Assembly: GCA_043820105.1 (NCBI GenBank)
Contig: JBDREC010000055.1
Location: 1 to 11,478 of the forward strand
Origin: JBDREC01 sp043820105 [NCBI: Pseudomonadota bacterium]
GTDB lineage: Bacteria; Bdellovibrionota_F; JAHFAK01
Length of the DNA: 11,478 bases
Direction: 5' to 3'
Below are positions 201 to 11,478 of the stretch, piece after piece. The notes beneath the pieces were generated by a model. It saw only the letters and a program-made list of their open reading frames with translations. It searched no databases and was not told where the DNA came from. A program made the translations under genes and the position numbers. Positions within the stretch are counted from its first letter, which is position 1; the number at the start of each line of letters is the position of its first letter.

Positions 201-216
201 TGGTATGACAATTGCA
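201..216 (+). promoter_or_regulatory. Sigma-54 (RpoN) -24/-12 type promoter for the gene at 318
   Basis: TGGTATGACAATTGCA matches the consensus TGGCACG-N4-TTGC(A/T) at 10 of 12 defined positions. The essential GG (202-203) and GC (214-215) are separated by exactly 10 bp. Transcription should start near 227, giving a leader of about 90 nt before the ATG at 318. RpoN promoters need an ATP-driven activator bound upstream; the paired dyads at 91-135 are candidate sites. Similar promoters occur at 1483 and 7939 before the other two transcription units, which raises confidence in this one. Confidence 0.72.
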
Positions 217-239
217 TTGTTAGTTATGAAAAAGACCCT

Positions 240-258
240 TTATCTAGGGCGAGCATAT
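240..258 (+). promoter_or_regulatory. Leader element TTATCTA-N4-GAGCATAT (copy 1)
   Basis: The 5' leader downstream of the 201-216 promoter contains TTATCTA, four variable bases, then GAGCATAT. The same arrangement occurs at 7956-7974, and GAGCATAT alone at 1541-1548. All three follow sigma-54-type promoters. The CCCT at 236-239 can pair with AGGG at 246-249 as a 4-bp hairpin overlapping the element. Function is unknown; it may be a protein or small-RNA site in a co-regulated set of mRNAs. Confidence 0.4.
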
Positions 259-317
259 ATAACTATGATTTACTTTGTTAAAATTGGGTTTAAACAAACT
301 TGAAAGGATCAATATAT

Positions 318-1373
318 ATGCAAAGATCTAGATTAATCATCATTTCTTTCTTTATAATAATAATAATAATAAGCCAAATAGTTTTCGCACAGGTATTAGT
401 AAGGCAAAGACCTGCGCTTGAAAGACAAAATAAAGAAAGAAGCGCCGAGCTTTTTGCAGCTTATGAAAGATATTATGAAGAGAGAATGCAAAGAACTGAA
501 GCTCTAAAAAGAGAACTCCAAAGAAAAATAGAACAAAGAGAGGCAATTGATCCTGGACTTATGAGGGAAGTTCAAGAACTTAAACAAGAAGTATTGGAAG
601 TTGAGGTTGAATATACAACAATGTGTAGAGAAGCAAGAGAAATGGGGCTTTGGGATGAAGCTTTTAAGGAAAGAGTGCGAATTTATAAACGCGATGAAAT
701 GCAAAGGCAAGCTTCACCAGTTGAAAGACCAATGACACAAGAACAGGTTGAATCGCAAGAAAGAGCAGAAACAGCTAATAATCAAGCTCTTGTAATTATG
801 AGAAGACAAATGACTGATGTAACAAGTACTTGGAAATCACGCCTGCAAGATGTTTCGCCAGAAACCTGGGGACGATTTAATGAATACTTAAAAGGTGCTA
901 ACAGGGATCTGCTAATAAGATTAGAAGAAGCAATAGATTATATTTCATCAAGAAGCAGTGAAGGTATTCGCAATGAAGTTCAAAGAGCCTTTGTTGAAGC
1001 TTGTGCAACCATGTTCACAACAAATGGAAATGGAACACATCCATTGAACGTGGTGACTCATCTAAAACATCTTGATTTGGCAGGTCTATCAGAAGCGGTT
1101 AAAATAAGAAGACTTGGCAGACTTTTTAGAGTTATAAAAAATGCCCATCTTCTTACCATGTCAGAAAGAGCAATTAATGAAAGCCTAACTTACGCTGAAA
1201 ACTTTAAAGTAGAATTTAGAGTTTTGATGGAAGAATTAAAAGCTATTGCTTTAGAAGACAGGCTTTTAACAGAAGCTGAAAGAGAAACCTTAAGAGATGA
1301 AATTATTGAAAGAATTAGAAAAAGAGAAGAACGCCTTGAAATATGCGGCTTAAGTGCGGCAGCTCCAGTTTAA
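318..1373 (+). CDS. Exported charged, helical protein of unknown function (351 aa)
   Basis: I do not recognise a family. The ATG at 318 is preferred because AAAGGA at 303-308 lies 9 nt upstream; an in-frame TTG at 300 would overlap that site. Residues 1-24 form a signal peptide with a basic start (MQRSR), a very hydrophobic core including six consecutive Ile all encoded ATA, and a likely cut after VFA. Residues about 33-130 are rich in Glu, Arg, Lys and Gln with heptad-like spacing, suggesting a long helix or coiled coil. Residues about 185-290 look like a more globular helical part, and about 305-345 is another charged helix. There are three cysteines after the signal (103, 229, 343). The protein would be periplasmic or outer-surface. 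It appears monocistronic: a sigma-54-type promoter precedes it, and candidate hairpins plus a new promoter follow. A structural or scaffold role is possible, but nothing proves it. Confidence 0.85.
   Translation: MQRSRLIIISFFIIIIIISQIVFAQVLVRQRPALERQNKERSAELFAAYERYYEERMQRTEALKRELQRKIEQREAIDPGLMREVQELKQEVLEVEVEYTTMCREAREMGLWDEAFKERVRIYKRDEMQRQASPVERPMTQEQVESQERAETANNQALVIMRRQMTDVTSTWKSRLQDVSPETWGRFNEYLKGANRDLLIRLEEAIDYISSRSSEGIRNEVQRAFVEACATMFTTNGNGTHPLNVVTHLKHLDLAGLSEAVKIRRLGRLFRVIKNAHLLTMSERAINESLTYAENFKVEFRVLMEELKAIALEDRLLTEAERETLRDEIIERIRKREERLEICGLSAAAPV
354..371 (+). repeat. (ATA)6 trinucleotide tract inside the signal peptide
   Basis: Six tandem ATA codons encode six Ile in the hydrophobic core of the signal peptide of the 318-1373 gene. 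Unit gain or loss would keep the frame and only change the length of the core. All six Ile use ATA, although the same signal peptide also uses ATC and ATT. Confidence 0.75.
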
Positions 1374-1376
1374 TAA

Positions 1377-1392
1377 TCCTCATATCTGAGGA
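1377..1392 (+). other. Hairpin TCCTCA-TATC-TGAGGA just after the 318 gene
   Basis: A perfect 6-bp stem with a 4-nt loop begins 4 nt after the TAA stop at 1371-1373. No U-tract follows, so it is not a classical intrinsic terminator. It could protect the mRNA 3' end. It also sits about 95-110 bp upstream of the -24 element at 1483, so an activator-binding dyad is possible; GGACAACTT at 1390-1398 resembles GGACCACTT at 91-99. Confidence 0.4.
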
Positions 1393-1413
1393 CAACTTAA
1401 CCCACCTGATTTG

Positions 1414-1440
1414 TTTTAACAATTTACAAGCTTTTAACAA
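1414..1440. repeat. Pair of TTTTAACAA direct repeats
   Basis: The 9-mer TTTTAACAA occurs at 1414-1422 and 1432-1440, 18 bp apart, about 45-70 bp upstream of the -24 box at 1484. It may be a binding site for a nucleoid or regulatory protein, but AT-rich sequence makes chance plausible. Confidence 0.3.
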
Positions 1441-1448
1441 AATGAAAT

Positions 1449-1480
1449 CATTGACAAAAAAGGCCTGGTCAATGTCTTGT
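1449..1480 (+). terminator. Inverted repeat CATTGAC/GTCAATG with T-rich tail
   Basis: A perfect 7-bp stem (1449-1455 with 1468-1474) with a 12-nt loop is followed by TCTTGTTTT. It could act as an intrinsic terminator for the 318-1373 gene, about 75 nt after its stop. It also ends only 8 bp before the TGG of the promoter at 1483, so an operator controlling the downstream operon is an equal alternative. The long loop and interrupted T-tract keep confidence low. Confidence 0.35.
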
Positions 1481-1482
1481 TT

Positions 1483-1498
1483 TGGCACAATACTTGCT
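1483..1498 (+). promoter_or_regulatory. Sigma-54 -24/-12 type promoter for the 1686-7801 operon
   Basis: TGGCACAATACTTGCT matches TGGCACG-N4-TTGC(A/T) at 11 of 12 defined positions. GG (1484-1485) and GC (1496-1497) are exactly 10 bp apart. The predicted start is near 1509, leaving a leader of about 175 nt that contains GAGCATAT (1541-1548), the heptamer array and the palindrome. This is one of the two best -24/-12 matches in the window. Confidence 0.78.
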
Positions 1499-1540
1499 TA
1501 TATCTATTATTATGGACACATTTCCTGTGCTTCCATTCTT

Positions 1541-1548
1541 GAGCATAT
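1541..1548 (+). promoter_or_regulatory. Leader octamer GAGCATAT (copy 2)
   Basis: This octamer is shared with the leaders at 251-258 and 7967-7974. The TTATCTA half is not adjacent here, but a TATCTA lies at 1501-1506, starting 4 nt after the -12 GC, the same offset as in the third promoter. Function unknown. Confidence 0.3.
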
Positions 1549-1561
1549 CTATTGAAATAAG

Positions 1562-1589
1562 TGGTAAGTGGTAAGTGGTAAGCAGTAAG
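1562..1589. repeat. Short tandem heptamer array (TGGTAAG)3 plus one variant
   Basis: Three exact TGGTAAG units (1562-1582) are followed by CAGTAAG (1583-1589). A second pair of related heptamers, GTTGCTG and GTTGCTA, follows at 1594-1607. Such short tandemly repeated sequences between genes are known from cyanobacteria and occur in other lineages. The array lies in the untranslated leader of the operon. Copy number may vary between strains. Confidence 0.8.
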
Positions 1590-1617
1590 TTTTGTTGCTG
1601 GTTGCTAGTAAATACAA

Positions 1618-1647
1618 CTCGTGCTCGTTCACGTGAACGTATACGAG
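1618..1647. repeat. 30-bp near-palindrome in the operon leader
   Basis: A perfect 14-bp palindrome CGTTCACGTGAACG (1626-1639) lies inside a longer imperfect one: arms 1618-1632 and 1633-1647 give 12 Watson-Crick pairs, one G-U and two mismatches. It is far more GC-rich than its surroundings. It ends 25 nt before the Shine-Dalgarno sequence at 1672. As RNA it would fold into a strong hairpin near the ribosome site; as DNA it could bind a dimeric regulator or be a dispersed repeat unit. No T-tract follows, so it is not an intrinsic terminator. Confidence 0.65.
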
Positions 1648-1685
1648 AACGAATATACAAAAAAAATTATCAAGGAAGAATTTTG

Positions 1686-4577
1686 ATGGAAAACAAATGG
1701 ATTCAACTTATTTTAGTTTATTTTTTCATTTGTGTTTCTATATCTAATCTATACTCAAACCCCAGGCAATCAATTGAAACCTTTGGTCGTGATCTTGATA
1801 CAAAGAGCATCTCAACATCTGATCCAAATCATGTAATCAGGATACATCCAAAGCAACAAGCCATGGAAGAATTTGCTCAATATGAAAAAGATCCATTCTT
1901 GTTTTTAGGTCTTTCTGAATCAGCTACACCAATGCAAATTGAAGAAGCTATAAAGTCAAGAGAAGCTAAAATATCCGCCTTTTCTAGTCGATCAAGATTT
2001 ATGCCAAATGAAAGCACTCAAAGAAATGTTGCCTGGAGAGCTTCAGTTGAAACAGAAAAAGTAAGAATGATTAGAGGACTGTTTGAATATTATTTACATC
2101 TAGGAGATGCAAATGAACAATTACGCAGTCCACGGCCCTATCGCCTTAGAGTTTTAGAAAACACAAACCAGGAAGAAATCGCTAGAAAACAAAAAATATT
2201 TTACACGAAAGCAGCAGATCTGGGTTTTTTTCCTGGAAAATATATGCAAAGCCAGCATGCAACACAAACAGCTCACATGATGCAGTTTTATGTTGCTTGT
2301 GCTGTCTCTGAACTAATTGATAGTTTGGGGACAAATGGAGACTTATCAAAAGTTCAAAATTATTTTTTAAGTTTGCTTGAACCAAGAACTCATGCTCAGT
2401 TCATGCTTTTTTCTTTTGGAGCAGCCTTTGGAACCCAAGGCCTAAGTTATGCATTTCAAAGATATTTGCCATATCTTGGTATGCATGCTGGAAATGGTTC
2501 AATGCAAGTTGCATCAATGCTTGGGCTTATGATTGGATCTGGCTTATCAGATTTAGTATTTGGTCTTTTATTAAATCCAGAGTTTAGAATGTATAGAAAT
2601 TCTCCTAATGCAGAAGAAAAAGATTATTACATGGATCGCTTGCTTGAAAATTTTTATTATGACATTGCTGTTGGAACAACTAGCTTAGCAGCCGCTGTGG
2701 GAATGTTAAATTTAGGAAAATACGCGATAACAACCATTGCCAAAAATAAATTGGATTTAGTTGCACATGAAGTTCCTTTAACAAATTCAGCCTTTTTAGC
2801 CAATCGATTTAAAAACCTGGCTTTAGTTAAAAGATGGGGGCTTGATGATTTTTTAATAAGGCTCGGCCATGCTCCAAAAGGAGTTGAAGTAAGTAGAGTT
2901 GTTATAGGACCTCATGGAAAAGAAATAGCTCAAAAGCTATTTTATGTTGGTGGTCATGTTGGAATCATGTTTTCAATGGCAGGTACTGTTATCATGCTTC
3001 GATTTGCTGATAAGTTTCATCATCTTTTTGATGAGTATTTAGCCAACCCTGTTAGGCATTGGTTTTTAGATAATGCAAAAAAAGAATATATAGAATTGAA
3101 AAATAAATATCTAGCGGTAGCGGATGATTCAACCTGGAGAGAGATCATAGATCTTTATTATTCAATAAGTCTTATTGATGACCGCTATAATGATTTAATG
3201 AAAAAAGCTAAAGAAGAACATTTGGAACATGAAATGACTTATCAGCAGGAAGTTTATGAAATTGAAAAGGCCTATGACACTAAGATTAATTGGGCTATTT
3301 GGTTAGGTCAGCGTGGAGCAAATGTAAATGATCCTTTATTTAAACAGGAAAATGTTCAAGATGCTAATTTGAAATGGCACGCTGATATTAACACTTTTGA
3401 TTTTCAAAAGGAACTGCACAGTAATATTAGAAATATTTTTTATAAATCAGAAAAAGAAGTTCCTGCCTTTGGTCCTTTGGGATCTCGATCAGTTAATACA
3501 GGCCTTGGGATGCTCTCTATTGCTGTTGATCAGATTACCAGGAATAGTGGGCCAAACAATTCAAATTTTAATTTTGGATATAATTTTCCTCAAGAACTAT
3601 TTGCTCCTCCTGTTGTTTTTGGAGATTTTTTGTATGATAATTATGTTGAACAAAATCCAGGTCTTGCTTCAGATAAATATTATATGAGAAATGTCGCTAA
3701 GATTTTAATAAATAAAATAAAAAAAGGCGATCTTATATATGTTGTTGAAGATTACGTTCAAAAGCTTCGGGAAGATAAAATTCATAAGATTCAGCTTATA
3801 AGTGAAAAATATAACAGGAATCTTTCTGAAGTAACAAGCAAAGTGTATTCTCAAGATGGAGAGCTTTGGAAGATAACAAAAGAACAATTAGATTATTTTT
3901 ATAAGGAGTTTATAGTTTCTTATAAACTTACAAATATTAAAAATTCTAAAGAGAAAACCCAAATAGATAAGCTTATAAATTGCATAGATGTTTTGGTTTA
4001 TAATGATCAAAGTTCTGGTTTAAGCAGCCAGGTTTGTAAAATGGATGCTATTGATGAAATTCATGATCTATATAGGGAAAGATATTCTCCTGAGGACTTT
4101 CAAAAACTGCAATCCTACTTAACATATGATGATATTGATTCAACTATTGCTGCTTTTGCTTATGCCAGAGCCTTAAAGGATCATTTCCATGTTCTGGATT
4201 TGTCAGGTACCTGTTATTATTTAAAGACAAAGGAAAATGATCTTTATGATGAGCTAGACTCTGTATGTAATATGTACTCTAATTTGCGTGCCTCTGGAAA
4301 CCTAAGTTCAATTATGATTTCAGGAATGCTTGAAAATGAACTTAAAAATAATTCCTCTAATAAAAAAACAGCTGATCCAATTTTAAAACATTATTATGAA
4401 TCAGAGCATAAGCTCAGTCAAGATAGAGACTATGAGTTAAGATATAGAAGATTAAAAGTAACATCGATTTTAGCTGAAAAACTTTTTTCTTCCATTGCTA
4501 CTTACGAGCACTTTAGATCAGTGCTGGCTTCAATTGGAAACGCCAAGGAATTTGCAGCCAGAGTGCGGGTTAGATAG
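1686..4577 (+). CDS. Large exported protein with hydrophobic segments and degenerate J-domain-like stretch (963 aa)
   Basis: The start at ATG 1686 is chosen because AAGGAAG (1672-1678) sits 7 nt upstream and a signal peptide follows directly (residues 1 to about 24, likely cut after YS). The frame stays open back to a GTG at 1575, but that extension would translate the tandem repeats and palindrome. Residues 69-96 (DPFLFLGLSESATPMQIEEA...) resemble the opening of a DnaJ J-domain (DPY-x-LG-[IV]-x-x-x-A-x-x-x-x-I-[KR]-x-A), and 127-152 (a helix ending LRSPRPYRL) resembles its end. No HPD tripeptide is visible, so DnaK stimulation is not expected. Hydrophobic segments at about 239-258, 273-297, 325-346 and 418-438 suggest membrane association. 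Residues 450-963 are hydrophilic and mostly helical. The next gene encodes a product of similar size and layout 13 nt downstream. No enzyme motif is recognised. Family unknown. Confidence 0.85.
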   Translation: MENKWIQLILVYFFICVSISNLYSNPRQSIETFGRDLDTKSISTSDPNHVIRIHPKQQAMEEFAQYEKDPFLFLGLSESATPMQIEEAIKSREAKISAFSSRSRFMPNESTQRNVAWRASVETEKVRMIRGLFEYYLHLGDANEQLRSPRPYRLRVLENTNQEEIARKQKIFYTKAADLGFFPGKYMQSQHATQTAHMMQFYVACAVSELIDSLGTNGDLSKVQNYFLSLLEPRTHAQFMLFSFGAAFGTQGLSYAFQRYLPYLGMHAGNGSMQVASMLGLMIGSGLSDLVFGLLLNPEFRMYRNSPNAEEKDYYMDRLLENFYYDIAVGTTSLAAAVGMLNLGKYAITTIAKNKLDLVAHEVPLTNSAFLANRFKNLALVKRWGLDDFLIRLGHAPKGVEVSRVVIGPHGKEIAQKLFYVGGHVGIMFSMAGTVIMLRFADKFHHLFDEYLANPVRHWFLDNAKKEYIELKNKYLAVADDSTWREIIDLYYSISLIDDRYNDLMKKAKEEHLEHEMTYQQEVYEIEKAYDTKINWAIWLGQRGANVNDPLFKQENVQDANLKWHADINTFDFQKELHSNIRNIFYKSEKEVPAFGPLGSRSVNTGLGMLSIAVDQITRNSGPNNSNFNFGYNFPQELFAPPVVFGDFLYDNYVEQNPGLASDKYYMRNVAKILINKIKKGDLIYVVEDYVQKLREDKIHKIQLISEKYNRNLSEVTSKVYSQDGELWKITKEQLDYFYKEFIVSYKLTNIKNSKEKTQIDKLINCIDVLVYNDQSSGLSSQVCKMDAIDEIHDLYRERYSPEDFQKLQSYLTYDDIDSTIAAFAYARALKDHFHVLDLSGTCYYLKTKENDLYDELDSVCNMYSNLRASGNLSSIMISGMLENELKNNSSNKKTADPILKHYYESEHKLSQDRDYELRYRRLKVTSILAEKLFSSIATYEHFRSVLASIGNAKEFAARVRVR

Positions 4578-4590
4578 AAAGGATAATTTA

Positions 4591-7380
4591 ATGCTTAAAA
4601 GGACGTTGAAAATTATTTTAATACTTACGATGGTGACTAATTTAGCATTTCCTAATGCTATTTTTGCTGTTCAAAATATTCCAGATGATCAAATCATAAG
4701 AAAAGCAGGATATGAAAATGTTAATGGTTCTGTTTTAGGGCTGGCGACTTTTGATTCCAGGGCTGCCTGGTTAAGTATAGCAGAAGAAATTGAAGAGCTA
4801 ACAAAGCTTTACCTTTTTCCTTTAGAAGATAATACCAGAAACTATGATTTTGGTTTAAGTCACATTGCCAGGAATCAATCCGCAAGCGGTATTGAAAAAG
4901 CCTATGTTGAAAAGGACAAGGGTTTGGATGCCTATATCCTTTTGCATGTTATAACAAGGAAAACTCCCCCTGCTTATACAAAAACAAAAGCAGGGCAAGA
5001 TATTTGGAATGGATGCATATACCGGGATGAAAATGGTGCAATTGATCTTAGAGATGGCTTAAAAGACACCTTTATGCATAGATTTGATCCTAAACATGAA
5101 ATTTTTAACTATGATATTTCGAGCTATAGTGATGATTATAAATCTGAACTAGCTAAAACCGCTGAATATTTCAACGAGGTTTTTAGAAATGGATTTATGT
5201 TTTTCGGTGAAGAAAATTCATACGAAGCAGCTCAAAAAATACCACCTGGTTTAGCTGAAGTTAAAATTGAAAAACAAAGATTTAGTATTAATTTAAATAT
5301 AAAAGAATTTTCAAAATTATTTTATGGAAGAACAATATTTGATATACCTATTTGTTTTGGGCAAGATGAAAATTCTATCTTGGCGGAAATTCAAGAACTT
5401 AAAATGATTATGATAGAAAATGGACTCATGCGAGGCGAGCTACCACAAAACTTATCAGGGCATGATACAGGAATATTGTCAGCTTATGGAAAGACCTCGG
5501 AAAAGGTAAAAAGTATTTTGGCAAATAGCTATGGGAAAAATGAAAAGCTTAGAGAATTTTATTTTCTTGGAGCGGCCCTGGGTTCATTAATGCTGGGAGT
5601 TGTGAAACCAGACAGGATCATGGCTGTTGGCTCCTGGATCGGGGACAATTCTTTAGCACCAGCGTCTTTTTTTGTTGAAAAATTAACAAAGACTGGTGAA
5701 ACTGCTTTTGTAATGCAAAAAGCCGGTGTTGCGTCAAGAGCATTTAGGTTCGCGGGTGGCCTTACTTTACATCTTGCAATTATAGCCTTATTTTTGATTC
5801 AATCAGGTATTGTTATTTATGATGCTTCAAAGCTTACAAGCGGTGAACTCAATCCAAATGAAAATGATTATTTTAAATCTGCAATAACGTTTGACACAAT
5901 GAGGGCTGCAGCTATTGCAATTATGACTGCTGGAGCCTTAGCAAACCCTGTTGTTCTTGGTTTTTTGGGTTTATATGGGATGCTTGAATATTATGATTAC
6001 TATGCAATAAGCAATGGTGACATCGGATTAAAGCAAATCTTTGCAAATTATTATAGATATTACTCAAGACCAGATGGAGCCTTACATTCTTATGAAGGCA
6101 ATAGATATGCCCGGTATGCAAGGAGCAAGGCAGGCCTTGAAAGATTTTTAACAACTTCTGATGGCACAGATTATAGTGAATTTATAACAGTAGAAAGGCT
6201 TGAAGACGAACAAGAGCGCTTTGCTGGGATAATGAAGCTTGTTAAAGATGGTATGAACAATATAAATGATTCATTTGAAGTGGCTAAAGTCATAAAACAA
6301 ATAAAAATAGTTTTGGAAAATGACGAGGATCCAATAGTTCTTCCTGAGCGATATGAAAATCCCCAAAGAAATATTAAAAAGCTTTTAGAATATTTAGAAA
6401 GGTCTTATTCATACTATCAAGGCTATTTAGAAAATGCCTATTATTATAAGCTTAGCTTTTTGCAAGAGTGGTTGGCCTTTGCAGGAGATCATACAATTAT
6501 GGGTACTCCAGGAGCTATTGCTCCAATAAAGGCTTTAGGAGAGTCAGCAAGATGGTTTATGATGGAAAATATTCCAAATTATTTTAATTATTGGGTCGAT
6601 TACTTTAGCCAACCATTTAGACTCGGTGATTATAAGTTAGAGTTAACAAAAGAAGCCTTCTGGCATGACTTTAAAGAGCTTTCCTGGAATTCCTGGACAG
6701 GGTATGTGCCAAGGCTGGCTCTGATTGCACCTGCGGCGTCTTGGTTTGGTTTAAGGTCAATGGGGATGGATAAAGTAACAGGCTTAGATGATTTGTTTGA
6801 TTTAGAAGAATTTAATAATAATGTATTTGAGACAATGAAACCACTAGGCATTGATATTGATATGCAAGGCTTTAAATCTCAAGATATGGCCGAACGATAT
6901 GCTGCCTTTGATTTTCATTTCAATACTTTATACTTGCATGAAGATTTTAAATATAGAGCAAAAGAGTCCTATGTAAAGGTTGATGAATTTGATAATATTA
7001 TTGTTAATGAAGAAGAGGGTCGCAAAAAAACGATTAATGTTGATTATGAGTGCAGTGCTACAATCAGTGAAGATGAATATAGAAGAAAAATTAATCTCGT
7101 TGGTTATTATAAAAAGCTTTATGAACAAGTTAATCAGCAAAGTACAATTTATAATAAGCTATTAGGAGATGATCCTGTTGGAGATGAAATTGATACAATT
7201 GTTGATAATTTAGGCAGACAATATACAAATCTTTTAGGTAAGCTGGCTTATGAAGCAGAGACTCTTTCAAGATACGATTATAGATCTGATATTTTTCAAA
7301 CCTTAATTCTAGTTTCAAAAATGGCCGAGGAGTGGAAAAAGTCGTCTATAGAAGATCAAGAGGAGAGTATAGTTGAATAA
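4591..7380 (+). CDS. Large exported protein with membrane-like segments, unknown function (929 aa)
   Basis: The ATG at 4591 has AAAGGA (4578-4583) 7 nt upstream and begins a clear signal peptide (basic MLKRTLK, hydrophobic core, cut after IFA at about residue 26). The open frame continues back to a TTG at 4495, inside the previous gene, but that start has no supporting site. Hydrophobic stretches lie at about 323-339, 388-410, 437-463 and weakly 706-722; the rest is soluble, Tyr-rich and acidic. The layout (signal peptide, N-terminal soluble part, hydrophobic cluster in the middle third, long helical C-terminus) parallels the preceding 963-aa protein. The two may form a complex or be very diverged relatives, although I cannot align them by eye. 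The gene is 13 nt downstream of its neighbour and overlaps the next by 8 nt, so the three are surely co-transcribed. No catalytic motif recognised. Confidence 0.85.
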   Translation: MLKRTLKIILILTMVTNLAFPNAIFAVQNIPDDQIIRKAGYENVNGSVLGLATFDSRAAWLSIAEEIEELTKLYLFPLEDNTRNYDFGLSHIARNQSASGIEKAYVEKDKGLDAYILLHVITRKTPPAYTKTKAGQDIWNGCIYRDENGAIDLRDGLKDTFMHRFDPKHEIFNYDISSYSDDYKSELAKTAEYFNEVFRNGFMFFGEENSYEAAQKIPPGLAEVKIEKQRFSINLNIKEFSKLFYGRTIFDIPICFGQDENSILAEIQELKMIMIENGLMRGELPQNLSGHDTGILSAYGKTSEKVKSILANSYGKNEKLREFYFLGAALGSLMLGVVKPDRIMAVGSWIGDNSLAPASFFVEKLTKTGETAFVMQKAGVASRAFRFAGGLTLHLAIIALFLIQSGIVIYDASKLTSGELNPNENDYFKSAITFDTMRAAAIAIMTAGALANPVVLGFLGLYGMLEYYDYYAISNGDIGLKQIFANYYRYYSRPDGALHSYEGNRYARYARSKAGLERFLTTSDGTDYSEFITVERLEDEQERFAGIMKLVKDGMNNINDSFEVAKVIKQIKIVLENDEDPIVLPERYENPQRNIKKLLEYLERSYSYYQGYLENAYYYKLSFLQEWLAFAGDHTIMGTPGAIAPIKALGESARWFMMENIPNYFNYWVDYFSQPFRLGDYKLELTKEAFWHDFKELSWNSWTGYVPRLALIAPAASWFGLRSMGMDKVTGLDDLFDLEEFNNNVFETMKPLGIDIDMQGFKSQDMAERYAAFDFHFNTLYLHEDFKYRAKESYVKVDEFDNIIVNEEEGRKKTINVDYECSATISEDEYRRKINLVGYYKKLYEQVNQQSTIYNKLLGDDPVGDEIDTIVDNLGRQYTNLLGKLAYEAETLSRYDYRSDIFQTLILVSKMAEEWKKSSIEDQEESIVE

Positions 7381-7801
7381 AAATATAAAGAACATTTTAA
7401 TATTTTTATTAATGCTGAGTTGTTCTTTGTATGCACAATCTTTTCCTATTCCCTTTGGAGATAGAAGCAATGATGCTCCAAAGTATGAAGAAGAAGAGCC
7501 AGATGCATATGTCAGCTTTTTGCTAAAAATTCATGAAGATCTTTCCTATAAAGATCCTTTAGATTTTCACGGAATCTGCGAGCTAAAGGAAGCATATAGA
7601 AGCGAGCTTTCAAAGCTTTATAATAAATGTGTTGATTATGCTGAGGATCATGGCATTTCCTATACAGAGAGAATGGATTATCATCTGGATTTTGAAGCCG
7701 AAATGTATGGAGCAATTTGGGAAGAGATAATGGCTGATAATGTTTTGAGTTATGAAAATTATGGACAAGAATGTTTTGGGCCTTTTTGTCCTAATAATTA
7801 A
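7373..7801 (+). CDS. Small exported cysteine-containing protein (142 aa), TTG start
   Basis: Translation begins at TTG 7373, overlapping the end of the previous gene by 8 nt. The start is supported by GGAG (7362-7365) 7 nt upstream and by the signal peptide that follows (MNKNIKNILIFLLMLSCSLYA, likely cut after A21). The only other in-frame ATG nearby is inside that signal. Cys17 lies in a weak lipobox-like LMLSC, so a lipoprotein is a less likely alternative. The mature part is about 120 aa, acidic (four Glu at 39-42) and largely helical, with Cys at 69, 86, 134 and 139. The last two form C-x4-C (CFGPFC) four residues from the end, and disulfides are plausible in an oxidising compartment. Overlap with the upstream gene suggests translational coupling and fixed stoichiometry with the 929-aa protein. 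No known family. Confidence 0.8.
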   Translation: MNKNIKNILIFLLMLSCSLYAQSFPIPFGDRSNDAPKYEEEEPDAYVSFLLKIHEDLSYKDPLDFHGICELKEAYRSELSKLYNKCVDYAEDHGISYTERMDYHLDFEAEMYGAIWEEIMADNVLSYENYGQECFGPFCPNN

Positions 7802-7829
7802 AATGTATATAAAATAAATGGTTTTGATT

Positions 7830-7866
7830 GGGACTTCAATTCCTCGAAATTGCTTGTAAAAGTCTC
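7830..7866 (+). other. Bulged hairpin after the three-gene operon
   Basis: The outer stem GGGACTT (7830-7836) pairs with AAGTCTC (7860-7866, one G-U). The inner stem CAATT (7837-7841) pairs with AATTG (7848-7852), leaving a 6-nt loop and a 7-nt bulge on the right. It lies 29 nt after the operon stop. There is no clean U-run, so it may be a factor-assisted terminator or mRNA end. It also lies about 75-110 bp upstream of the -24 element at 7940, where an activator site would be expected. Confidence 0.4.
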
Positions 7867-7938
7867 GGTTTGCGATAACATTTCTTCATTGACTTATCTA
7901 ATCTAGTGATTTAACAAAGCTTGTCAAATAACACGCTG

Positions 7939-7954
7939 TGGCATGAACTTTGCA
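7939..7954 (+). promoter_or_regulatory. Sigma-54 -24/-12 type promoter for the GH13-like gene
   Basis: TGGCATGAACTTTGCA matches TGGCACG-N4-TTGC(A/T) at 11 of 12 defined positions (only C to T at the sixth). GG (7940-7941) and GC (7952-7953) are exactly 10 bp apart. The predicted start is near 7965, leaving a leader of only about 37 nt. A TTGTCA at 7921-7926 could pass for a -35 box, but no convincing -10 follows at proper spacing. Confidence 0.78.
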
Positions 7955-7955
7955 G

Positions 7956-7974
7956 TTATCTAAAGTGAGCATAT
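7956..7974 (+). promoter_or_regulatory. Element TTATCTA-N4-GAGCATAT (copy 3)
   Basis: This is the same spaced pair as at 240-258, 15 of 15 defined bases identical. Here it starts 3 nt after the -12 GC, so it spans the predicted transcription start (about 7965). It is followed by TTGGACCAA (7974-7982), whose TGGACCA is also found in both repeats at 91-135. Function unknown. Confidence 0.4.
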
Positions 7975-8001: not shown

Positions 8002-11000
8002 ATGGATTTTATGAAACGGAAAAATTATAGAAATCGACAAATTTTCCTTAATATATTCTTAAATTTAATTCTTTTAATATTTCTATCTAGTTTTGCTAAT
8101 TCTACTGTTTTAGATGTTTCAAAATTAGTTTCATTTGTCGATGGCCAAGCAATTGGGTCTATGTATCCTGATCAGGGGATAAAATCTTCATATTTGAATT
8201 TCCCAATATCAGGTCCCGATTCAGTAGTAGAACTACGAGTATATTTGGATTCAGAAGCCCAAAACAACCCGGAATTTATTTATTTAGAAACTTCAACAAA
8301 TGAGGAATCAGAATTATTAAAAAGTACTCTGGAAAAATTATTCATCTCTAGCAATGCAGCACAGCTTAGTGAAGCCTATACTGCATTAATTAATATTTTT
8401 AGTGGAAGATTCCCCAAAATACGCTTAAAGTCATCTGCGGTTAGGATTTCAGAAAATGGAGAAAGATATTATTCTATAATAATTAGTCCACGGTTTAATC
8501 AATTTGCTGAATCATCAATTGTTGATAGCAATGGCGGTCTTGTTACTCTTAGACAACCCAAAAGTTGGCACGGAGAAAATAGAACTTTAACAAATTTTAC
8601 TTTAAAGTTTTTTGATACAAGCATGACAAAAGGTGTCGGTGTAATGGGCTTTCCAGTTGCCTATTCAAGGCCAGTTCAAGATATTAAAGATGCAACACCG
8701 CTTTACGACTTTGATGAAATAACAATGAACAGGTTATATTTGGGGCAAATGTCTTATGAAGACGCGATACCTGTATTAAAAAAAATAATTGATGCTAGTA
8801 TTGCGTCATTATCATGGACAGGCAATCTTTTAGAACAAAGAGGTCTTGATGCAAGTGTTGAAAACCTTGGTTTATTAATTAGTGAATATGAAGCAGGTTT
8901 AATTGAATTAAGTGAGTTTCCAAGGTCCTTGCAACCATTTGTAGAAAATCTTGGATTCGAAAGGTTTTTTAATTTACTAAATGATATTGATATGGATACT
9001 TTAACAGAAGATAGAGCATATGATTACTTGAGAATAGCCTATGGAGATCCCTTGCAACCCGAGGAGCTTAGCTTTGAAGAAACTCAAAGAACAAGATATG
9101 TTTTTAGTCCTAAACAGGAAGCTTTATATATTCCCACCTTTGAAGAAATGGCGGAAATGATTGTCGCTGAAAAAGCAAGACTTGGATATGATACTGTTTG
9201 GTTAGCTCCTGTGCGAGACTATGGGGTAGATTCTGGTTTTACAACAGCTCCCGGAATATTTAAATTAAAAGATGCTGAAGGAAGGCAAAGGGAGGTTTTA
9301 TGGGGGCCATATAATACTACTTTCCCAGCTCTTATTATGCGTTATAATTCATCGTCAAATTCAGCTAGTTATTTATTGGGCGGGGATAGTTCTTTGCAAG
9401 CTTTGTTTGCTCGCTTTTATGCAGAGGGAATGACAACTGTTCTTGATTCACCGCATTTGCACCATTCAAGTGCTTCAATGGGTTATGATCTAACTGGATC
9501 AGAGCAGTTTTATCGCCTTGTTGATATTGTTTTAGCTTCACTTGGGTATAGGCGAACTGCACCTCATCCTTTAAATCTTCAAAACAGCTCGTTGATTGAA
9601 GTTAGTTCAGGCAGAGAAGTTTCCTCGTATGAAGTATTTTATGCTAAAAAACCAACTATAGACTCATCCGGAATAATTCAGGAATATTTTCCAGGTAAAG
9701 ATGCAAGACCCCAAAATCCTGGAGAAATTGGAAACCATCCGTTTACTGAGGCCAAGCCTGGAAATAGTGAGGCCATGCTTTGGAGAAATATCACAGCACC
9801 AGACACAAGAAGGCAGGCGGTGCAGCTTTTATATACCTTGGCTGAAATTGATTTTTTGAAAAGGATGACTCAAGGGAATATAGATCAGCGTTTAATTATA
9901 AGAATGGACGTTGATTTTGCAAGACTTGATCACGCAAGGCCCCAAGACAGACCATTTGCAAGAAATCTATTTAATAGTTTGATGGCGATGTTTCCCAAAT
10001 TAATACCTGCAGCTGAACTTGTTGGAATGCATTCTCCTGATGAAGTAAGAGAGTATGCGCGTGATACTGTTTTGGTTCAACCCAATCCAATGAACCCAAT
10101 GTTAACAGGAAGATTTGGAGAAGCTTTTGATGAACGTGGAGTTTTATCGCAACCTGAACGCATAGCTGAAATGGTTCAAGCCGGCGTTGCTTTGTCTTAT
10201 GGAGAATATCTTAGACAAGCAGGAACACCTGTTTTAGTTTTTGATCCAAGTGGCAAGTCAAACCCAATGTTTGTTTCTCATTTCTTGCATGACAATTGTA
10301 CTTCAATGCCAAGCCAGCTTGGCAGAAACTCTTTACAAGTAGATCGCTATGGTCATAGGACAGTAACATTTGAACATCCCAATCAAGTTCTTGGTACATG
10401 GCTTTATTATGCCTTTGGAGGCAATGGTATTGCTATGATTTTTGATGGACAATTAATTGCTTCACCTAATGATCCTGATTGGACTATTTCCAATGAATCC
10501 GGGCAGTATGAAATGCCACGATATGAAAGATATGTTGATCCAATGTCTTATATACCTGGGGACGCTAGTGAGGAAGAAAAGGTTGAATTGCGAAAGCAAG
10601 TTGCCCAAAATGCATTATTATTTAATCACAGCGCTGTTCAGCTAATTAGCTTTTTGCAGGCAACTAAAAATTATCAAGTTTTCCAAATCAAAAGCTTAAA
10701 TTCTGAAGGTACTTTAATTGGCAAAGTTATTTTAGTCCCAGGCAAAGGTTATGCTATACATTTATTGAACTTGGGCCCATATACTTATCCCGTTGAGCTT
10801 AATTTAGAATCAAACAGCCATTTAGGAGCTTTTGAAAGAACTTCTTTGCAACGATATTATGAGGAATTTGGAACAAAGCTAGCCAGAGTAAAAATCACTG
10901 AAGGTGAAAAAGCTAAAGCAAGATATTTTGAAAGAGATTCAGATAGAATTTTAAGAGTTGAAACCCTTGAGCCTTTTGAAACGGTTATATTATTTTCAGA

Positions 11001-11100
11001 AGGACTATTACAAGATTTTAAGCGAAACACAGGTTATCAGGAACCAAGTAGTGAGCTAGCTGGGTTTTTAGCATGTGCTGGTTTGTTTGGAGGACTTTAG
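8002..11100 (+). CDS. Exported GH13-like (alpha-amylase superfamily) protein, 1032 aa
   Basis: This is a probable secreted or periplasmic glycoside hydrolase or transglycosylase acting on alpha-glucans, or a carbohydrate-binding relative. Residues 1 to about 34 are a signal peptide. Residues 35-360 are an N-terminal region I do not recognise. The barrel starts near GYDTVWLAPV (395-404). Region I is VLDSPHLHH (480-488; Asp482, His487, with the usual Asn replaced). Region II is IIRMD (632-636; Arg634, nucleophile candidate Asp636, but without the usual Lys/His after it). Region III is AAELVG (670-675; acid/base Glu672). Region IV is HFLHDN (760-765; His763, Asp764). FGGNGIAMIFDGQ (805-817) matches the G-x-P-x-I-Y-x-G-Q-E region. 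About 880-1000 is a beta-rich domain C ending PFETVILF. The full catalytic triad order is present, but several flanking residues deviate, so substrate is open. ATG 8002 and ATG 8011 are both possible starts; neither has a good Shine-Dalgarno sequence. A sigma-54-type promoter lies just upstream. Confidence 0.75.
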   Translation: MDFMKRKNYRNRQIFLNIFLNLILLIFLSSFANSTVLDVSKLVSFVDGQAIGSMYPDQGIKSSYLNFPISGPDSVVELRVYLDSEAQNNPEFIYLETSTNEESELLKSTLEKLFISSNAAQLSEAYTALINIFSGRFPKIRLKSSAVRISENGERYYSIIISPRFNQFAESSIVDSNGGLVTLRQPKSWHGENRTLTNFTLKFFDTSMTKGVGVMGFPVAYSRPVQDIKDATPLYDFDEITMNRLYLGQMSYEDAIPVLKKIIDASIASLSWTGNLLEQRGLDASVENLGLLISEYEAGLIELSEFPRSLQPFVENLGFERFFNLLNDIDMDTLTEDRAYDYLRIAYGDPLQPEELSFEETQRTRYVFSPKQEALYIPTFEEMAEMIVAEKARLGYDTVWLAPVRDYGVDSGFTTAPGIFKLKDAEGRQREVLWGPYNTTFPALIMRYNSSSNSASYLLGGDSSLQALFARFYAEGMTTVLDSPHLHHSSASMGYDLTGSEQFYRLVDIVLASLGYRRTAPHPLNLQNSSLIEVSSGREVSSYEVFYAKKPTIDSSGIIQEYFPGKDARPQNPGEIGNHPFTEAKPGNSEAMLWRNITAPDTRRQAVQLLYTLAEIDFLKRMTQGNIDQRLIIRMDVDFARLDHARPQDRPFARNLFNSLMAMFPKLIPAAELVGMHSPDEVREYARDTVLVQPNPMNPMLTGRFGEAFDERGVLSQPERIAEMVQAGVALSYGEYLRQAGTPVLVFDPSGKSNPMFVSHFLHDNCTSMPSQLGRNSLQVDRYGHRTVTFEHPNQVLGTWLYYAFGGNGIAMIFDGQLIASPNDPDWTISNESGQYEMPRYERYVDPMSYIPGDASEEEKVELRKQVAQNALLFNHSAVQLISFLQATKNYQVFQIKSLNSEGTLIGKVILVPGKGYAIHLLNLGPYTYPVELNLESNSHLGAFERTSLQRYYEEFGTKLARVKITEGEKAKARYFERDSDRILRVETLEPFETVILFSEGLLQDFKRNTGYQEPSSELAGFLACAGLFGGL

Positions 11101-11110
11101 GAAAAGGACA

Positions 11111-11142
11111 AGGGAACAAGGGAACAAGGGAGCAAGGGAACA
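11111..11142. repeat. Short tandem octamer array (AGGGAACA)4
   Basis: There are four 8-bp units, the third AGGGAGCA, preceded by a degenerate AGGACA (11105-11110) and followed by AGG. The array begins 10 nt after the stop of the GH13-like gene and lies before the next gene. The strand shown is rich in Shine-Dalgarno-like AGGGA, but the copies are 37 or more nt from the ATG at 11179. This is the same class of element as the heptamer array at 1562, with a different unit. Confidence 0.8.
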
Positions 11143-11178
11143 AGGATAATATTTTTGTAAAAAGGGAAAAGATAAAAT

Positions 11179-11478
11179 ATGACAATTAATATTAAAAAGT
11201 ACTTATTCTTTATTACAGCAATAAGTATTTTTTCTGTTAATTTCGTTTTTAGCCTGCCTATCCCAGGAATGCAAGATACAACCTATAGATTGATTTATAC
11301 AGACAGAGTAGATTTTGAAGGCGCTATTCAACGGTCCAATATTTTAGGTCAAGAGATTTCAGAAGTATCATTACCTGAAGCTGCTGGCATCCTGGAAGTT
11401 TCATTAAGAAGAGAGCTGGCTAGATACCTTGATGGAGTTGGCAGGGGTCATCTTAAAATTGTGAAAGTATATATTGAT
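11179..11478 (+). CDS. Start of an exported protein, cut by the window edge (first 100 aa)
   Basis: The frame is open from ATG 11179 to the last base. AAAGGGA at 11161-11167 is a ribosome site 11 nt upstream. Residues 1 to about 25 are a signal peptide (MTINIKKYLF..., cut after VFS). The mature part begins LPIPGMQDTTYRL. The visible remainder is mixed in charge, with no motif I can place. The gap from the GH13-like gene is 78 nt with no terminator-like hairpin, so the two are probably co-transcribed from the 7939 promoter. The mature N-terminus shares the PIP triplet with the 142-aa protein (SFPIPFGD), which may be coincidence. Confidence 0.7.
   Translation, partial: MTINIKKYLFFITAISIFSVNFVFSLPIPGMQDTTYRLIYTDRVDFEGAIQRSNILGQEISEVSLPEAAGILEVSLRRELARYLDGVGRGHLKIVKVYID

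Follow-up and report, generated by a model that had tools for sequence, protein, structure and literature searches.

The window analysed here, a stretch of 11,478 nt with a GC content of 34.6%, contains six reading frames on the plus strand, and none of their products scores above the curated cut-off of any Pfam or NCBIfam family (a search of Rfam likewise returned no match). The question raised by this locus is how such genes are switched on, and three short intergenic sites resembling sigma-54 (RpoN) -24/-12 elements suggest an answer. Very probably, as judged from their sequence, all three are genuine sigma-54 promoters, each of which drives a unit whose products are probably exported. At each -24/-12 element, RNA polymerase carrying sigma-54 would sit in a closed complex until an ATP-hydrolysing enhancer-binding protein opens it, and only then would transcription take place. 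Transcription would start about 12 nt past the GC of the -12 box, and the driven units would be a single gene in the first case, three genes in an operon in the second and, in the third, a long gene that a second one may follow (Table 1). We infer that the cell has rpoN, that transcription begins at the predicted points and depends on an activator, that the genes are organized in operons and that their products are exported. If so, this block of exported proteins, which cannot otherwise be interpreted, gains a testable on-switch, and the units would stay silent until the activator responds to a signal, as in published sigma-54 surface programmes.

Genes and predicted products

Table 1. Genes, putative sigma-54 promoters and copies of the shared leader word in the window.
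Feature	Position	Strand	Description
Promoter 1 (-24/-12)	201..216	+	TGGTATG-ACAA-TTGCA = TGGTATGACAATTGCA; before unit 318-1373; predicted RNA start ~227
GAGCATAT copy 1	251..258	+	TTATCTA ahead at 240-246
Unit 1	318..1373	+	351-aa protein; hydrophobic N-terminus; no family over cut-off
Promoter 2 (-24/-12)	1483..1498	+	TGGCACA-ATAC-TTGCT = TGGCACAATACTTGCT; before operon-like unit 1686-7801; predicted RNA start ~1509
GAGCATAT copy 2	1541..1548	+	Leader of unit 2
Unit 2, first gene	1686..4577	+	963-aa protein; hydrophobic N-terminus; no family over cut-off
Unit 2, second gene	4591..7380	+	929-aa protein; 13-nt gap; hydrophobic N-terminus; no family over cut-off
Unit 2, third gene	7373..7801	+	142-aa protein; 8-nt overlap, TTG start; hydrophobic N-terminus; no family over cut-off
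Promoter 3 (-24/-12)	7939..7954	+	TGGCATG-AACT-TTGCA = TGGCATGAACTTTGCA; before unit starting at 8002; predicted RNA start ~7965
GAGCATAT copy 3	7967..7974	+	TTATCTA ahead at 7956-7962
Unit 3	8002..11100	+	1032-aa protein; hydrophobic N-terminus; GH13-like motifs only, no profile match
Next gene	11179..11478, runs off window	+	Hydrophobic N-terminus; 78-nt gap without sigma-54 match

The frames are preceded by 317 nt and separated by 312, 13, -8, 200 and 78 nt, and the division into three units follows from these gaps alone. Since the 78-nt gap lacks a sigma-54 match, the last gene is possibly cotranscribed with unit 3. The listed frames of the first three genes open farther upstream (300, 1575 and 4495), the chosen start being in each case the ATG downstream of a purine-rich stretch. 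A hydrophobic segment lies within the first 30 residues of all six products; they are probably exported, as had originally been predicted, the hydropathy scan being the one line of evidence that speaks for it. Residues 51-153 of the 963-aa protein (1836-2144) were modelled as helices at fair confidence (pLDDT 75.6). A J-domain in this N-terminal part was considered and rejected: J-domain chains appeared among many insignificant Foldseek matches (E above 1), and Pfam gave only two other families for these residues (E 0.16 and 0.26).

The 1032-aa protein had also been described as GH13-like. It contains the stretches VLDSPHLHH (residue 480), IIRMDVDF (residue ~632), PAAELVG (residue 669) and FVSHFLHDN (residue 757), which resemble, in this order, what we take to be the four GH13 regions. 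The description found no backing in profiles or known structures: Pfam yielded no match for the full-length protein (E up to 1) or for residues 355-937 (E up to 10), NCBIfam yielded none, and a PDB sequence search at E up to 1 returned no GH13 chain and a single unrelated one (E 0.85). A single-sequence model of the GH13-like part, inspected for a TIM barrel, had a pLDDT of 31.7 and was unusable. The likeness is a motif impression from the sequence and not a classification.

No confirmed relative of this protein was found in collections of genome contigs, viral contigs or plasmids, nor any confirmed relative of the 963-, 929- and 351-aa proteins in viral contigs; these searches start from an exact 8-residue match and therefore reach close relatives only. 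A plasmid match of 1-317 to Borrelia was short (E 7e-3, 17% covered) and was taken as chance. Whole genomes likewise contained no convincing relative of the 1032-aa protein in 1759 look-ups, among which some genomes occurred twice and whose blanks show little, there being no positive control. Three weak matches in whole genomes (E 0.0048, 0.0075 and 0.0070; 13.6-14.5 bits; 50-86 residues; internal stops) were judged to be chance, and 151 genomes of the phylum of Simkania sp. (L059) gave no match at E up to 0.01.

Sigma-54-type sites and their chance expectation

On re-check, the coordinates, coding strand, spacing and sequence of the three elements in the original prediction were all correct. 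Each site carries GG at -24 and GC at -12, 10 nt apart, and all three agree without mismatch with TGGYRYR-N4-TTGCW, a degenerate form that was drawn up after the sigma-54 consensus once the sites were known and that has no other match in the window on either strand. The consensus has been printed as TGGCAC-N5-7-TTGCT (PMC12316311); from a strict TGGCAC, site 1 (TGGTAT) differs at two positions, site 3 (TGGCAT) at one and site 2 at none. Exact matches on the plus strand number 1, 1, 1 and 0 in the intergenic regions of 317, 312, 200 and 78 nt, while the minus strand of these regions has none. Inside coding sequence, where an equal density of matches would have spoken against promoters, the full form does not occur (0 in 10,571 nt, both strands). 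The claim that such elements head every transcription unit stands for the three long intergenic regions and not for the gap 11101-11178 (78 nt), and it applies to units that are defined by intergenic gaps only, in a window that begins at base 1.

Francke et al. (2011, PMC3162934) report that the best sigma-54 sites concentrate 0-200 nt before genes, and do so only in genomes that bear sigma-54, and that well-placed sites are highly likely to be genuine; by mere number of sites, they report, genomes that have sigma-54 and those that lack it did not clearly differ, so that only placement speaks. In the window, the site ends lie 101 nt (site 1), 187 nt (site 2) and 47 nt (site 3) from the start codons, all within the 0-200 nt zone. 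In their TGG and TTGC boxes, their GG-N10-GC spacing and this distance, the sites are like known sigma-54 promoters, from which they differ in the TGGTAT and TGGCAT of sites 1 and 3 and in serving genes without assigned family. A search for the RpoN family in other genomes, which has no bearing on the source genome, gave matches in four of four fetched genomes and in 4 of 14 controls.

Alternatively, the matches could be chance occurrences or binding sites of another factor, with the units driven by ordinary sigma-70-type promoters. We regard this as very unlikely, although several observations can be cited in its favour. Site 2 overlaps a sigma-70-like TTGGCA-17-TATTAT at 1482-1510 that matches at 10 of 12 positions; such matches occur in the window at chance level, however (40 versus 45.1 +/- 6.2 expected), and the first region has none on its plus strand. 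Bare GG-N10-GC is likewise close to chance, with 45 occurrences in the window against 35.2 +/- 6.1 expected, and is for this reason uninformative alone, so that the full boxes have to carry the weight. Moreover, the sites are inconspicuous unless the consensus is taken as a prior. When the three regions were aligned blind to the consensus, the sites were not singled out at widths 12, 16, 18 or 20: the sigma-54 triple fell outside the best five at width 12 and ranked third at 16 and 18 and second at 20, and the best observed score was reached by 20, 8, 2 and 9 of 60 simulated sets, respectively. At width 16, the best triple joined the TATCTA...GAGCAT stretches of regions 1 and 3 to position 1383 in region 2. 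The significance of the sites therefore depends on the known consensus.

With that consensus, the numbers argue against chance. Among 20,000 first-order Markov resamples with each region's own make-up, the probability of at least one full match was 0.0003, 0.00165 and 0.00105 for regions 1-3 (product 5e-10). The product of simulated probabilities was 9e-8 for the looser TGGYRN6TTGC, and 9e-6 for the two cores only (TGGN8TTGC; 0.025, 0.022 and 0.017), a form with one match in coding sequence. An empirical background was taken from 119 genome loci that are among the matches listed for a pattern holding one such site, with the selecting match subtracted. It contains 18 further full matches in 882,456 bases, or 0.23 expected per window, and 9 in 279,973 bases of its low-GC loci, or 0.37 per window. 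The background was restricted to genome loci because viral loci made up the excess (43 in 359,917 bases), mostly a group with clustered sites; when both are pooled, low-GC loci give 1.1 matches per window, which is above the figure used. Against the genome-locus background, three matches in their 829 nt of one strand, where about 0.01 would be expected, have a probability of 1e-7 to 4e-7. The reading as sigma-54 promoters is well supported at the sequence level, by the quality of the matches, their placement and strand, and their absence from coding sequence, and the three probably add a further example to a known promoter class.

A shared leader word and a possible common activator

It had further been proposed that the three units form a single regulon that is switched on together. 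A more specific version, in which one enhancer-binding protein switches all three and the word GAGCATAT acts as a second control element shared by their leaders, is a tentative reading that we hold to be somewhat less probable than its negation. The promoter class is identical at all three units, and the regulon as proposed gains from this, but no shared upstream activator site was found. Sharing of 6- to 9-mers upstream of the three promoters was as in resamples (P at least 0.17 for pairs, and no excess of triples), i.e. no greater than chance. A candidate activator site, CATTGAC, occurs before promoter 2 (1449-1455; its inverted counterpart lies at 1468-1474) and before promoter 3 (7887-7893); it was discarded, upstream k-mer sharing being at chance, and the dyad was not among the inverted repeats listed by the repeat search. 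Not every such system needs an upstream site in common: CtcC of Chlamydia, an activator devoid of a DNA-binding domain, is described as turning on a sigma-54 regulon whose members include membrane proteins and type III effectors (PMC7482065). By analogy, the lack of upstream sharing would fit separate activators as well as one activator without a DNA-binding domain. The C. trachomatis regulon resembles the present locus in that sigma-54 promoters precede several genes whose products are membrane or secreted proteins; there, however, regulon and activator were tested (PMC7482065), whereas the promoters described here are known from sequence alone.

Four exact copies of GAGCATAT are present in the window, and three of them lie in the three leaders on the same strand (Table 1), two (copies 1 and 3) in the arrangement TTATCTA-N4-GAGCATAT. 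An 8-mer common to the three leaders, with one strand considered, arose in 0.6% of 4,000 resamples (P ~0.006), and the sharing seen when both strands are counted in 1.7%, neither value being corrected for how region and word length were chosen, which weakens the case for a common control element. So does the distance of the word from the predicted starts, which varies (about +25, +33 and +3), so that a role at the RNA level or an independent one at the DNA level is as likely as a part in the promoter. The leader element is a lead, and the only part of the locus that might be new.

Promoter and GAGCATAT together would offer a handle for finding further members in the genome, should the regulon be real. 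Elsewhere, the combined pattern was found in 35 viral and at least 119 genome stretches with titles from many unrelated organisms. A slightly wider pattern had exactly one copy in each of 20 genomes searched whole, presumably the selecting copy, and promoter plus GAGCATAT therefore marks no related regulon in those 20. One viral match outside long frames (L024) lies on a contig that looks by its reading frames like that of an ordinary phage.

A role for sigma-54 in governing the cell exterior is a published theme (Francke et al. 2011, PMC3162934), and the products of this locus are likewise predicted to lie outside the cytoplasm. The theme as set out there concerns transport and synthesis of polysaccharides, flagella, LPS, lipoproteins and wall precursors, whereas the genes considered here encode large orphan proteins with export-like N-termini. 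A literature search linking sigma-54 promoters, signal peptides, glycoside hydrolases and activators found nothing. That the lineage has a sigma-54 regulon given over to large exported proteins of its own, with GAGCATAT in the 5' leader marking the members and adding a further layer of control through RNA or DNA, is conceivable, and we consider it unlikely.

Other repeats and clustered sites in viral loci

Several repeats were noted in the intergenic regions of the window. Two 22-nt direct repeats, 24 nt apart, are located at 90-135 (TGGACCACTTTTGCGTCCGATT / TGGACCAGTTTATCGTCCGATT) and recall the repeated ends of IS21-type elements. Short tandem arrays occur at 1558-1590 (unit TAAGTGG, 4.7 copies) and 11108-11145 (unit ACAAGGGA, 4.8 copies). 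The leader of unit 2 contains at 1618-1647 an imperfect 15-nt inverted repeat with zero gap (CTCGTGCTCGTTCAC / GTGAACGTATACGAG, 80% complementary), and a long RNA fold of -45.1 kcal/mol, a value without shuffle control, is predicted for this leader.

Clusters of three to six exact sigma-54 consensus sites were observed in 11 of the 35 viral loci, the selecting site being counted. Six sites each are present in L013, L015, L020 and L026, four each in L019, L022, L033 and L034, and three each in L014 and L035; in the remaining locus, L002, they extend over 4152-5434 (4152, 4170 on the minus strand, 4226, 4317, 4400 and 5419). To our knowledge, sigma-54 promoters in phages would be unusual, and a search for literature on them in (marine) phages gave nothing on topic, as judged by title. 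The L002 sites at 4400 and 5419 precede genes that start at 4458 and 5480 behind purine-rich ribosome sites; the clustered sites are interspersed with copies of TTACCAAGTTGTTAA. The stretch 4100-5700 of L002 had no DNA match in the phage collection. A protein neighbouring the cluster matched 265 phage records, each at less than 60% identity (235 Mycobacterium and 11 Pelagibacter phages), the best match being to a Limnohabitans phage at 44%.
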